Source of the DNA: Nodosilinea sp. E11
Lineage (GTDB): Bacteria; Cyanobacteriota; Cyanobacteriia; Phormidesmidales; Phormidesmidaceae
Reading direction: 5' to 3'
Length of the DNA: 64,000 nt
Assembly: GCF_032813545.1 (NCBI RefSeq)
Contig: NZ_CP136520.1
Coordinates: 1,606,001-1,670,000, forward strand
Part shown: piece by piece, positions 25,654 to 30,764 of the stretch
Position numbering within the stretch: the first letter of the stretch is position 1
How the letters are laid out: the number at the start of each line of letters is the position of its first letter
The notes under the pieces: generated by a model
The model's database searches: none
Seen by the model: only the letters and a program-made list of their open reading frames with translations
What the model was told of the DNA's origin: nothing
Program-made: the position numbers and the translations under genes

Positions 25654-26385
25654 ATGGTGATGACTGCGCAACAGCTGGCCGACCTGATGCCAGATGCGAC
25701 CCAGTTGGAGAGTAATGAACCAGAAATGGAAAGCTCGCTACATTACGCCCAGCTAGCGCTGCTGGTGGCCTGCTTAGACTGGCTGTGGCGAGAGCGAACA
25801 GATTTCTTCATTGGCGCTAATCTGACTATCTATTCCAGCCGCGAACAGCTCAAGAAGCGCGATTTTAGAGGCCCCGACTTCTTCATAGTCAATCAAACCC
25901 AGCGCCATCTTAGATGGACTAAATATGTACGCAATGTCGGGTTAACCGACTGCTTCCTCAAAAATCACATCCAGCGCCGCCACCGAAAATCGTGGGTGGT
26001 GTGGGAAGAAGATGGGCGGTACCCCGATCTGATTATCGAGCTGCTGTCTCCGGCTACGGCAAAAACAGATCGCACCCTCAAAAAGGTGCTCTATCAAGAT
26101 TGCTTTAGAACCCCAGAGTATTTTTGGTTTTCGCCAGAGACCCTGGAGTTTGAAGGGTACCGATTGGTGGGGCAGCACTATGATGCGATCGCGCCTAACG
26201 CCTCAGGCCACCGCTGGAGTGAGGTGCTGGGCCTATTTTTAGGCGTTCAAGACAATACCCTGCGCTACTTTCACCCCTCGGGTGAGCCGGTGCCCACCCC
26301 CGAAGAGGCAGCAGCAGCGGCCCAAGCCCGAGCCGATCGCCTAGCCGAGCAGCTAAAAGCCCTAGGGGTAGAGCCAAAAGCCTAA
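25654..26385 (+). CDS. Uma2 family protein (DUF820, restriction-endonuclease-like fold)
   Basis: 243 residues. It has the PD-(D/E)XK-like blocks of Uma2 proteins: GPDFFIVN (Asp of the active site) and WVVWEEDGRYPDLIIELLSPATAKTD, containing the E-x-L-S-P-x-T motif, then KKVLYQDCFRTPEYFWFSPE. A C-terminal helix rich in Ala/Glu (PTPEEAAAAAQARADRLAEQL) is usual in cyanobacterial members. Such genes occur in many copies in cyanobacterial genomes, and their role is unproven. ATG 25654 or a third-codon ATG could be the start. A repeat hairpin follows directly. Confidence 0.9.
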   Translation: MVMTAQQLADLMPDATQLESNEPEMESSLHYAQLALLVACLDWLWRERTDFFIGANLTIYSSREQLKKRDFRGPDFFIVNQTQRHLRWTKYVRNVGLTDCFLKNHIQRRHRKSWVVWEEDGRYPDLIIELLSPATAKTDRTLKKVLYQDCFRTPEYFWFSPETLEFEGYRLVGQHYDAIAPNASGHRWSEVLGLFLGVQDNTLRYFHPSGEPVPTPEEAAAAAQARADRLAEQLKALGVEPKA

Positions 26386-26470: not shown

Positions 26471-26670
26471 ATACCAATCGTCCATGTCGCCAAGACGACA
26501 CCCCCAAGGATGAAAATTGTAGGGTGCATCCGCGCAGCGATGCACCGTCTCAGGGTTATTTTTAGAGCAAATCCGAGTCACATAACCCCGATTCATCATC
26601 AGTACCCCGTAGGGGCATTGCAGTGCCATGCCCCCACAAAGCAGGTGTATACAGACAGGATTTTGTATTA
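26471..26670. repeat. MITE-like dispersed repeat, long copy B
   Basis: Starts ATACCAATCGTCCATG and shares with copies A and C the 110-base left part. It has GTAGGGGCATTGCAG...CATGCCCCCAC in the middle and ends ACAGGATTTTGTATTA. The final TTA is the complement of the TAA stop codon of the minus-strand gene 26668-26949, so the element ends exactly at that stop. Confidence 0.8.
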
Positions 26671-26949
26671 CTCAATCAGCAGGGTTTTCGTCAGAATGAC
26701 CATCCACGTCATCCCCTCTGGGGTGGCTGCGCTTTGCACTCCGCTGGTAGGCGGCACTGGGATGGGGTCGCTCCAGTCATTGGGGTCGGCGTAGCCGTAG
26801 GCATGGAGGATTTTGATGGTGCGATCTATCCCCGCCAAGCTGCCGTAGAGCAGGTGGCGCACTTTCTCAGGGCGGGGATGAGGATGGGTTGGCTGGTCAG
26901 GCGGAAGATTGGACGCTCCGCTGGCGTCGGGTTCGAGGTATTCAAACAT
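26668..26949 (-). CDS. Small conserved cyanobacterial protein, unknown function
   Basis: 93 residues from the ATG giving MFEYLEPDASG, preceded by AAAGGA; a longer frame would start in repeat DNA. After a Pro/His-rich start the sequence EKVRHLLYGSLAGIDRTIKILHAYGYADPNDWSDPIP is the recognisable part; I recall short cyanobacterial proteins with this helix and the ADPNDWS motif, often scattered in repeat copies near transposition-prone regions. It ends MTWMVILTKTLLIE. The stop codon coincides with the end of a MITE-like repeat. No function is known to me. Confidence 0.7.
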   Translation of the reverse strand: MFEYLEPDASGASNLPPDQPTHPHPRPEKVRHLLYGSLAGIDRTIKILHAYGYADPNDWSDPIPVPPTSGVQSAATPEGMTWMVILTKTLLIE

Positions 26950-27018
26950 CGGTTCTGTATTCCTTTGGTGTTTGCAGTGAGCAAGCCCTGCCTGCAATTC
27001 CCTTGTAAAAGGGTAGAG

Positions 27019-27150
27019 TTTTCCCCTCCTGGGAGGGGCTAGGGGTGGGTTCAACTCAAGCAGCTAACCGACTTACTCGCGATAAGTAACGGGCTGGTTG
27101 CCAAAACAGACCCACCCCACCCTGCGGGCACCCCTCCGAGGAGGGGAAGG
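27019..27150. repeat. Inverted-repeat element flanking a 55-base centre
   Basis: The left arm TTTTCCCCTCCTGGGAGGGG...GGGTGGGTT and the right arm GACCCACCCCACC...CCTCCGAGGAGGGGAAGG are imperfect reverse complements. It has no coding content and may be a palindromic MITE or transcript end. The following stretch to 27614 is A+T-rich and without a supported gene. Confidence 0.5.
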
Positions 27151-27614
27151 GCGAGGAAGACAGAACGCGAAAACCCTAGCTAACCGCAGCTGAGGTGCAA
27201 ACTGGGAGAGCTAGGGTACGATCGACCTTAGCCCTGCAATCTGCGCAAGAGATTTGCCGGGTTAGCTGTTCGTAGGTGTTGGAAGCGCCTACGGACAGCG
27301 CCAAAGTTTTCGAGTTCTGCATGGTCACCGCTCGGATTGAACGGCTTAATGTAAGAGAATACTGGTACAACCGCTCCCCGTCAACCGTGGAGATGGAAGA
27401 TAGCACGATGCTATTTATCCTTATAAAAGCTATTATGCAAATTATCTACTAATCAGGAAGAGTCAGGATGCGAATAATCTGCCTATCTACTCAATTAAAG
27501 GAATCAGATAGTTAGAGTTATTCAATAAATTAATAGACGGATAAGCGGAAGCTTAAGATTGAACAATCCTGAAATTCAGGGCTTAATTATTTTCTTAGTA
27601 TTTTTTTGCGTTTT

Positions 27615-28895
27615 ATGAAAATCAAGATTAATGGGATAACGAGCCTCGCTGATTCCAATAGATTTTTGCGAGCTCTCTGGGCTGAATTACGAAAACAATT
27701 CGGGAAATTCGCCTGGAATTATCAACCATCCAAAGATGGAACTTCACAAACCATTTTTCTTGGCTGGGGAAATGGGATACCCATCTCTTTATTATATAGC
27801 CAGAAATCCATAGTAAACGGTGTCCTATTTGGGAATGGTTCTAGTGAGCCTGTAGATGAAGCAAGTGAGTTAGGCTTAAAACTAAAGCAAAGCGTTGTTG
27901 CAGCACTTCAGCATCGAAATATTCCTAAAACGGAGATTCTAGAGGTGCCAATTTCATCTCTTTATAGTTCACTTGCTCCCTATAAAGGTGAGTGGCTTGA
28001 AATTTTGCCTGGACAACGGCCTATCTCCTTGCTAACTGTTAGAGTAAAAGCTTTTGACGAGACGGATGCGAAAACAGAACTCTTTCGCATTTCTTCGTTT
28101 ATTTTGGACGTGCTTAGCATAGAAACAAATAACATGTTTTGGATTGACAGCCAAAAACAGGACAAAGTTTACGAATTAAAGTTAGGAACGGAAGAAGCAG
28201 TCTGCCCAGAAGTAAATACTTCTCCCAATGATGAAGAATGGATTGACACATATCCATCTCACAACGGATATATGCTTATTTCAAATCAGGCCATCCAATT
28301 CCTTGATCGGATTTTGTCAAAAGATGAGCTGAGTAGTACTGAAAGTTTATTTATCCGCTCTTGTCATCACTATCATATGGCAAGGATTCAAGATGCATTA
28401 ATTTACAATCGCTTGTATTCTCCGAACAGTCAGCCCAACGATGAACCACTTGGAATTATTTTGGAAGAAGATCCCCGCTTCAAAGAAGCACCTATATTTG
28501 CTGGACGAGCTAATGAGATTGCTACAGTACTTTATATGTCTGCAATTGAAGTTGTTTCAATGATTGACGCTAATCCTTCCGAGAAGTGTACAAGTTGTGG
28601 TCAAGAACAATATAGAATTTCAGCACGTGTTGCAGAATACGTCAATAAATATGATGAGGGGGGGCATTTATCTAAAGTCTTCAAGTCCCTTTATAGCAAG
28701 AGATCAAAGTATCTTCATGCAGGGGCTTTACTGAGTGATCATGCATATGTTGGGACAACCATACCTAAATTGGATCCCTCGTCAGACTCTGGTATGTCCG
28801 AGATGATCTCTGTTCCTGTCATAAACCTACGAGAATGGACTGGTTATATGCTTCGTCAACAACTTAAATCTTTATTATTAGCTGGTGGGCTATGA
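27615..28895 (+). CDS. HEPN-like (ApeA-type) protein in an A+T-rich island
   Basis: 426 residues from ATG 27615; a TTG three codons earlier is the only alternative. The gene is strikingly A+T-rich beside its neighbours and uses codons the other genes avoid, a sign of recent transfer. The N-terminal half is a beta-rich region of unknown fold (LFRISSFILDVLSIETNNMFW). The C-terminal region resembles Apea-like HEPN domains: AIEVVSMIDANP, a CTSC pair at residues 325-328, ISARVAEYV, and LYSKRSKYLHAG, where R363 and H368 make the R-x4-H ribonuclease motif. This suggests a growth-arrest or antiphage RNase, but no known partner gene is adjacent. Family assignment is by eye. Confidence 0.6.
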   Translation: MKIKINGITSLADSNRFLRALWAELRKQFGKFAWNYQPSKDGTSQTIFLGWGNGIPISLLYSQKSIVNGVLFGNGSSEPVDEASELGLKLKQSVVAALQHRNIPKTEILEVPISSLYSSLAPYKGEWLEILPGQRPISLLTVRVKAFDETDAKTELFRISSFILDVLSIETNNMFWIDSQKQDKVYELKLGTEEAVCPEVNTSPNDEEWIDTYPSHNGYMLISNQAIQFLDRILSKDELSSTESLFIRSCHHYHMARIQDALIYNRLYSPNSQPNDEPLGIILEEDPRFKEAPIFAGRANEIATVLYMSAIEVVSMIDANPSEKCTSCGQEQYRISARVAEYVNKYDEGGHLSKVFKSLYSKRSKYLHAGALLSDHAYVGTTIPKLDPSSDSGMSEMISVPVINLREWTGYMLRQQLKSLLLAGGL

Positions 28896-29087
28896 GCGCT
28901 GACTCACCAAAAGCCCCAAGCGCTTTAATCTTGCACTACGATCGCACCATCCCCCCCGCCCAACCAAACCTGCGACGACTACGAACCCCTGCTCGCCAGC
29001 CGTCGCGACGATACCACCATCAAAATTCGCGTCAACGCCCACACCCCAACAGATCTCGCTTATAGCTCCCACGGCTGGCCACGGTAA
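28892..29087 (+). pseudogene. Frameshifted gene remnant next to the HEPN-like gene
   Basis: An ATG overlaps the preceding stop (ATGA) and reads MSADSPKAPSALILHYDRT then IPPAQPN. Another frame then carries on with DDYEPLLASRRDDTTIKIRV up to SSHGWPR and a stop at 29085-29087. Each part looks like real protein in GC-rich host-type codons, so a single frameshift or small deletion joins them. I do not recognise the family. A programmed frameshift cannot be excluded. Confidence 0.4.
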
Positions 29088-29151: not shown

Positions 29152-30414
29152 CTAGTTCAGCGCTTCGAGGTAGTCGCGGACGCGATTGCGGCGCTTGGGC
29201 TGACGCAGCTTTTGCAACGCCTTCGACTCGATCTGACGCACTCGCTCGCGGGAAAGCTCCAGAGCGCGGCCAATCTCAGCCAGGGAGTAGGGGGTGCCGT
29301 CGCCCAGGCCAAAGCGCATGTTGATCACATCTTGCTCACGGGTAGTGAGGTCGGCCATCAACTGTTGCAGATCGCGGCGCAGCGACTCGCGAATCAGCAT
29401 GTCTTCGGGCGACATGCAGTCGGTTTCGAGCAGGTCGCCCAGCTCGGTGTCGCGGTCTTTGCCCACCTTAGTTTCGAGCGAGACGGCGCGGGGCACCCGC
29501 AGCAGCACTTCGCGCACCTGGGCGGCGGTCATGTCTAGCTCGCGGGCGATGTCTTCGACCGAAGGGGTACGGCCTTTCTCTTGAGAGAGCTTGCGCTGGG
29601 CCTTTTTGATTTTGTTGAGCTTTTCGGTGATGTGGACTGGCAGGCGAATGGTGCGGCTCTGGGTCGCGATCGCCCGCGTAATGCCCTGACGAATCCACCA
29701 GTAGGCATAGGTGCTAAAGCGATAGCCCTTGGTGGGGTCAAACTTTTCGACCGCCCGCTCTAGGCCCAGGGTGCCTTCTTGAATGAGGTCGAGCAGCTCC
29801 AGACCCCGGTTTTGATATTTCTTCGCCACCGACACCACCAGGCGCAGGTTGGCCTTAATCATGTGCTCTTTGGCGCGAATGCCCTCAGAGATGGCCTTTT
29901 CTAGCTCAGGCACAGTGAGGTTGCTGAGTGCAGCCCAGGCGCGCTTGCCTTCGGCCAGGGAGGGCTTGAGTTCGGTGATGGGCACCTCAGCAGCGGCGGC
30001 CCAGCGCTCTAGAGACGGGCGATAGCCCAACTGCGACGAAAGGCGATCGCGGGTTTGCAGCAGCTTGCTGTAAACGGCTAAAATGCCACCCTTGGCCTCG
30101 GCAGCGGTGTTTAAGTCTTCGAGCAGCTGCATATAGCCCTGCACGCACTGGGCCTCAGCGACCTCTTCGTGGCGCTCTAGCAGGCGTACTCGGCCAATTT
30201 CTTGCAGGTAGAGGCGCACTAGATCAGTGGTGCGACGCCCCTTCAGCACGGCCGCTGTGTCGGCCTCAAAGTCGCTGTCATTAGCATCGGCGGCAGCGAA
30301 ATCATGGAGCTTGAGGGAGCTGCCGTCCTCATCATCGCCTAAGCTAGGCAGGCCAAACTCCTGATCAGCCAGGGGGGAGGCTTTATCTCTGCTGTAGTGG
30401 GGTGTTGCTACCAT
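29152..30414 (-). CDS. sigC: Group 2 RNA polymerase sigma factor, SigC type
   Basis: 420 residues from the ATG giving MVATPHYSRDK. All sigma-70 regions are present: 1.2 (TTDLVRLYLQEIGRVRLL, about residues 62-79), 2 (LIQEGTLGLERAVEKFDPTKGYRFSTYAYWWIRQGI), 3 (ITEKLNKIKKAQRKLSQE) and 4 (YSLAEIGRALELSRERVRQIESKALQKLR). The VRLYLQEIGRVRLLERHEEVAEAQ form of region 1.2 is what I associate with SigC rather than the housekeeping SigA, which has VRMYLREIGRIPLL. It probably serves stationary-phase or carbon/nitrogen responses, as SigC does elsewhere. The symbol rests on this recall. Confidence 0.75.
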   Translation of the reverse strand: MVATPHYSRDKASPLADQEFGLPSLGDDEDGSSLKLHDFAAADANDSDFEADTAAVLKGRRTTDLVRLYLQEIGRVRLLERHEEVAEAQCVQGYMQLLEDLNTAAEAKGGILAVYSKLLQTRDRLSSQLGYRPSLERWAAAAEVPITELKPSLAEGKRAWAALSNLTVPELEKAISEGIRAKEHMIKANLRLVVSVAKKYQNRGLELLDLIQEGTLGLERAVEKFDPTKGYRFSTYAYWWIRQGITRAIATQSRTIRLPVHITEKLNKIKKAQRKLSQEKGRTPSVEDIARELDMTAAQVREVLLRVPRAVSLETKVGKDRDTELGDLLETDCMSPEDMLIRESLRRDLQQLMADLTTREQDVINMRFGLGDGTPYSLAEIGRALELSRERVRQIESKALQKLRQPKRRNRVRDYLEALN

Positions 30415-30764
30415 GACGCTCTCTAGTAACTTGTACCAAACATGTACCGATAGGCCATTTGCCAACCTGAGCTCAGTATTCCCAAACTGTCAGGACTTTG
30501 GAACAGCGGCTGGAGTTCCAGGGGAAAGCAGGATGGAGATCGGGGGGGTAGGTACTCTCCCCGAGGGCCAAAACTCACCGGGGTGAATTGAGGACCTAAC
30601 CATGCCGCAGGCTGAGGCCAGCAAAGACGTATCGTCCCCGTAATCTACGACGCCAGCAGGGATAATTCCTGACGGAACGTTACACCTTGGCAAAATCCTC
30701 ACATTGAACCCGAACTGGCCTATAGGATGTGAGCATTCGTTGCGATTGAGAGCAGGCTTCGCTC
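30415..30764. promoter_or_regulatory. Divergent region between sigC and the PCP_red gene
   Basis: 350 bases carrying the promoters of two divergent genes. The open frames inside lack protein-like composition. I see no member of the window's repeat families and cannot place promoter boxes with confidence. Confidence 0.35.

Follow-up and report, generated by a model that had tools for sequence, protein, structure and literature searches.

A solitary gene for a probable HEPN-family protein in an A+T-rich insert of a cyanobacterial chromosome and a recurrent structured element at its border

The locus and its A+T-rich insert

The DNA analysed here, referred to as the window, is a 64-kb stretch of a 6.1-Mb cyanobacterial genome. 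It carries a solitary gene for a 426-aa protein of the HEPN family, and no other gene lies inside the A+T-rich island that holds it (Table 1). The composition of this gene is foreign. Its G+C content is 39.7% and that of the insert is 38.4%, compared to 58.3% in the remaining window, and the lowest value among 597 other window stretches of 1476 bp is 49.1%. A 426-residue reading frame in an A+T-rich island had been proposed from the sequence, and this was borne out. The proposed start of the island at 27480 was not, as it falls within a non-coding leader; the true island spans about 27393-28868. The last seven codons of the gene (LLLAGGL) fall within conserved flanking sequence.

Table 1. Features of the window and of the orthologous inserts in congeners. 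Coordinates are window positions unless a locus is named.
Feature	Position	Strand	Basis or remark
Window, 64 kb	G000:C7:1606001-1670000
Uma2-type gene, one side of the HEPN gene	25654-26385		Pfam
Small orphan gene, 93 aa, MFEYLEP...	26668-26949	-	Divergent to the element at 40/40 copies examined
Left border, ~240-nt structured dispersed element	27153-27392	+	2-17 copies per genome in 20/25 congeners
A+T-rich insert, variable cargo allele between two congener-conserved borders	27393-28868	.	G+C, homology limits
426-aa HEPN-family protein, solitary gene	27615-28895	+	ATG 27615, stop 28895
N-terminal a/b region, residues 1-172	27615-28130	+	AlphaFold pLDDT mostly 65-93
C-terminal HEPN domain, residues about 240-422	28332-28880	+	Model of residues 205-426
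C325-TS-C328 (C325-x2-C328) between HEPN-domain helices, possible zinc knuckle	28587-28598	+	Both Cys invariant in 5/5
R363-SKYL-H368, predicted HEPN ribonuclease motif	28701-28718	+	Invariant in 5/5 family members
Right border, single-copy flank with truncated Uma2-type remnant (28954-29086)	28869-29086	.	Uma2 by inspection of aligned intact copies
rpoD-type sigma factor gene	29152-30465	Opposite to the HEPN gene	Reading of the sequence
G420 insert, 546-aa TPR protein			40% G+C
G415 insert, 425-aa HEPN-like protein with LYNSRSKLVHDG	L046:2723-4000	+	38% G+C; itself without family match
G418 insert, 200-aa protein with RHIFAHG	L048:2232-2834	+	41% G+C; weak RiboL-PSP-HEPN match, E 0.025
G417 insert, repeat protein			50% G+C

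Alternative cargos between conserved borders

Homology to congeners ends at 27391-27412 on the left and restarts at 28869-28896 on the right, with the exception of G415, in which the right homology restarts later, at 29077. Between the same borders, five different cargos are found in five congeneric genomes, including the present one (Table 1). These different single inserts with common borders indicate that the site exchanges single genes. Of these five alleles, two or three appear HEPN-like, namely the present one, that of G415 clearly, and that of G418 possibly, by a weak match. In other congeners the right border is kept, and the left border is altered or beyond reach. Chromosomal spots at which genes are swapped often hold anti-virus defence genes.

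Two further observations concern the right border. In several congeners, the Uma2-type gene that is truncated there looks intact. In G429, the right border of the orthologous site adjoins a gene for an 8xMP-family membrane protein of 142 aa (L045:10672-11100, minus strand), and the 240-nt element is missing.

The probable C-terminal HEPN domain

Since the HEPN part came out too weak in the full-length model, residues 205-426 were modelled alone (mean pLDDT 60, with the motif-bearing loop poorly modelled). The nine best VIA-align rows for this model are all HEPN structures, with Z values of 10.1-6.0 over 120-139 residues. They include toxins of HEPN-MNT pairs (10.1-8.2), the HEPN domain of human sacsin (7.8), and 3jrt (6.0), and the first non-HEPN rows begin at Z 5.6. 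Helical bundles give inflated Z scores, and all of these values are below 13 for a helical bundle. For this reason, the assignment rests on fold, motif, and remote homology together. Foldseek returned no significant match for the same model, with sacsin HEPN top-ranked but not significant, and only noise for the whole-protein model. With the family profile, two proteins that are unrelated elsewhere in their length were detected by their C-terminal part, one in G415 (E 8.5e-4) and one in G436 (E 9.2e-4), and hhalign of the family against these proteins gave E 2.2e-5 over residues 301-371. Taken together, these lines of evidence make it very probable that the C-terminal part adopts a HEPN fold, in agreement with the original prediction. 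HEPN proteins also comprise non-catalytic and housekeeping members.

An R-x4-H motif had been pointed out in this domain, and it was confirmed as R363-SKYL-H368. The motif occurs once in the protein. Because 29% of shuffled copies of the 426-aa protein also contain one, R-x4-H was dropped as sole evidence for a HEPN domain. It exceeds chance by virtue of its invariance in the family, its alignment with two remote HEPN-like proteins, and the structural HEPN match. R363, H368, both cysteines, and the surrounding RSKYLH.G are invariant across five members at identities down to 34-37%, and RSK..H.G is in register with the G415 and G436 proteins. R363 and H368 form a predicted ribonuclease motif, and the metal-independent endoribonuclease activity of the superfamily would be expected of the protein. 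The CxxC pair noticed earlier also held up, as C325-TS-C328, and likewise occurs once. A single Cys pair is seen, and it may form a zinc knuckle.

The N-terminal half

The N-terminal half was said to match nothing, and by sequence this stands. In the model, an a/b region of about 172 residues is followed by helices, and residues 1-104 resemble a helix-grip/TBP-like fold of low specificity, with VIA-align Z values up to 7.4 against assorted helix-grip domains. The N-terminus of RnlA is among the rows, at a Z of 4.4 that many unrelated helix-grip domains share. TBP-like domains are on record at the N-terminus of HEPN proteins of the RNase LS family, and action on RNA in RNA:DNA duplexes has been suggested for these proteins (PMC3710099). 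The modelled likeness to RnlA is a lead rather than an indication of membership.

A rare family without constant neighbours

Searches that included about 440 cyanobacterial genomes found five loci in total, all of them cyanobacterial. One relative, in another genus of the same family as the host (G439), shares 59% identity, and another, with 37% identity, lies on a plasmid of Calothrix PCC 7716 near a mobilisation-type gene. The others are found in G346 and in Pseudanabaena SR411. No relative of the HEPN protein was found in the phage records and viral contigs searched. An IS1-like element, accompanied by a 9-bp duplication, splits the G346 copy, and that of SR411 is frameshifted close to its start. 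Both of these broken copies are Pseudanabaena-type, and such decay would be expected of a dispensable accessory gene. Comparison with the G439 homologue gave a dN of 0.30 and a dS of 1.51, which indicates purifying selection on the protein.

The contexts of the five loci, named partly from ORF reading, are plasmid genes, rpsD, Uma2, glutamate synthase with PIN-type genes, and the present site. No neighbour is shared among them, and the gene therefore looks like a single-gene system. A survey of homologue neighbours had been envisaged in the original prediction as a guide to defence islands. It gave no common gene, and no recognised defence system was seen beside the five loci. Searches of Pfam, PADLOC, NCBIfam, and PHROGs gave no family match for the 426-aa protein. 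In PADLOC-DB 2.0.0, zero families were returned for this protein (P0001) and for P0002 and P0006. A PDB sequence match to 7dz9 (E 0.004 over 54 residues) was judged to be chance.

Comparison with known systems

The closest structural counterpart is the HepT toxin of HEPN-MNT pairs (8xeh, 8xdj, 7bxo), which shares the HEPN helical bundle (best match Z 10.1, 122 residues, rmsd 2.7). However, identity to HepT is only 8%, and the present gene lacks an MNT partner and has about 240 extra N-terminal residues and the CxxC insert. No adjacent MNT nucleotidyltransferase gene is present in the island, which holds one gene only. Vpc_cass2 (3jrt) also has the HEPN fold (Z 6.0) and is carried as mobile integron cargo. 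It differs in its length of 166 aa and in having no N-terminal domain, and the present locus has no detectable attC-like site. RnlA of RNase LS combines an N-terminal TBP-like region with a C-terminal HEPN domain (PMC3710099). Its Z of 4.4 here is not specific, PDB sequence searches gave no match to RnlA, and no RnlB-like neighbour is present. No common adjacent gene that could encode an RnlB-type antitoxin occurs in the five loci.

ApeA is similar in being a single-gene protein with an N-terminal domain and a C-terminal HEPN domain. Its N-terminal domain, ApeA-NTD1, is mostly beta-stranded and about 300 aa long (PMC3710099), whereas that of the present protein is an a/b domain, and no Pfam match is over threshold. 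The 426-aa protein has no match to PF18739, and one homologue gave a sub-threshold score of 12.7 bits against a cut-off of 24.4 (E 0.17). A shallow hhalign comparison with true Apea members found nothing, and true members occur in the genus as separate genes. The description of the domain as Apea-like is not supported, given the sub-threshold PF18739 score, the null hhalign result, and the different N-terminal architecture. The 425-aa cargo of G415 has the same borders, the same A+T richness, and a HEPN-like motif, and is detected by the family profile. Nevertheless, its N-terminal half has no similarity to the present protein and it lacks the CxxC.

The left-border element and the small orphan gene

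The small gene beginning MFEYLEP has no Pfam family, and the 240-nt element has no Rfam family and is absent from plasmid records. The element folds better than shuffled sequences (z -3.34), and its consensus is conserved and multi-branched, with 46 pairs, three of which show compensatory change. The flanks of 40 element copies in the genus (L088-L127) were surveyed. G+C in the first 1.5 kb is below 0.48 at 36 of the 40 copies on the element's other side versus one of 40 on the small-gene side; mean values are 0.427 for the cargo side and 0.575 for the small-gene side. Most cargo ORFs (86/94) are directed away from the element. Among the cargo genes are two for DRT-type reverse transcriptases (PADLOC Drt6/Drt4 models), along with NACHT, DNA methylase, HNH, and Fic genes, and by inspection also CD-NTase-like and HsdM-like genes. 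Beside these defence types, GNAT, GFA, MgtC, PIN, and other genes are found. As functions are mixed, the proposal of a mainly defensive cargo was rejected. The small-gene family is multicopy in other cyanobacterial genera as well, where it is paired, in the same relative position, with a conserved but diverged element of about 250 nt (L138-L153; G215, G233, G091). No A+T bias was seen beside the pairs in G215.

At two loci, a CD-NTase-like gene (L082) and a CD-NTase-like gene followed by a membrane protein gene (L085) lie downstream of the element. Judged by eye, these are possible CBASS-type cargo.

Integron integrases and attC-like sites

Integron integrases above the NCBIfam cut-off are present in 12 of the 25 congeners. 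Several, whole or broken, are convergent with the element and lie about 30 nt from its 3' end, or further at remnants (integrases or remnants at L062, L076, L088, L107, L129, L132, and L136), and others are located elsewhere without the element. A TIGR02249 search revealed an integrase remnant adjoining another copy of the element and no integron integrase at the HEPN locus. The host genome has an intact intI at G000:C7:51091-52029, 1.58 Mb away and without the element. Directly after many cargo ORFs come oriented, attC-like inverted-repeat sites of 75-180 nt with RYYYAAC/GTTRRRY cores. Such repeats (GTAGGTTGGGTTGACG...AAACCCAACA...TGTTGGGTTTC...CTCAACCCAACCTACTAACT) follow cargo ORFs at L098, L109, L111, L118, L121, L122, and other loci. 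Chromosomal attC sites are known in cyanobacteria (PMC8352920). Neither the 64-kb window nor the orthologous alleles gave a match to a profile of the attC-like sites of the genus, and on this ground the HEPN gene was rejected as an intact integron cassette. With neither an attC-like site nor an integrase at the locus, the term integron cassette cannot be applied to the gene.

A candidate defence ribonuclease and its alternatives

We put at about even the chance that this is a solitary gene for a HEPN endoribonuclease that moves horizontally, belongs to an undescribed cyanobacterial family, and is probably of the abortive-infection type. The grounds for a mobile HEPN ribonuclease are the foreign composition, exchange at the swap site, rarity, purifying selection, the lack of a constant partner, the fold match, and the invariant R-x4-H. 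HEPN families are widely employed in defence (PMC3710099). The superfamily and the site make defence the most likely function, which we infer with confidence and doubt in roughly equal measure. The antiphage or growth-arrest role suggested at first is plausible on these two grounds, and no defence-system model matches the protein. In such a mechanism, the N-terminal helix-grip/TBP-like region would sense or position an RNA or RNA:DNA ligand, and the Cys pair would stabilise the HEPN domain. When triggered by phage infection or in some other way, a HEPN dimer may cut cellular or phage RNA through R363 and H368, and this would stop growth and phage spread.

The same ribonuclease could instead be carried by a degenerate integron-like platform and serve in an accessory role that has nothing to do with phage, such as stress response or RNA regulation. 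Elsewhere in the genus, arrays that carry attC-like sites and integron integrases start with the left-border element, and the mixed cargo (GNAT, MgtC, GFA, and PIN beside defence types) would suit such a role, but the window and the orthologous alleles lack attC-like sites and the HEPN locus lacks an integrase, so that we consider this reading rather doubtful. A toxin in a toxin-antitoxin or addiction arrangement, not serving defence, would be in keeping with HEPN-MNT toxins as the closest structural matches and with the plasmid-borne Calothrix copy near a mobilisation-type gene. As the island has no adjacent small or MNT gene and the five loci have no common neighbour, this is distinctly unlikely. 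A non-catalytic HEPN protein that acts as a binding or regulatory module is very unlikely; several HEPN families are inactive (PMC3710099) and the model is poor around the motif, whereas R363 and H368 are invariant in all members and inactive HEPN families tend to lose both.

The HEPN protein is a new architecture within a known superfamily, and present defence databases do not detect it. Of the two, the recurrent element at its border may be of greater novelty. A tentative and rather speculative reading is an undescribed cyanobacterial gene-capture platform, in which an MFEYLEP-family protein and a divergent, structured RNA or folded-DNA element of about 240 nt would mark or guide one-sided insertion of A+T-rich cargo. 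Defence genes would be among this cargo, integron integrases and attC-type arrays would be assembled on some copies, and the HEPN protein would be its new single-gene defence effector. A recurrent element with one side reliably loaded with foreign genes offers a place to look for more in one cyanobacterial genus. Two questions would become testable, namely which solitary HEPN proteins are cyanobacterial phage defences and how fixed chromosomal sites capture single genes.

In the element copy of the window, a short, GC-rich, MITE-like inverted repeat (CCCTCC...GGAGGGG, within 27010-27150) stands in place of the element's 5' hairpin.
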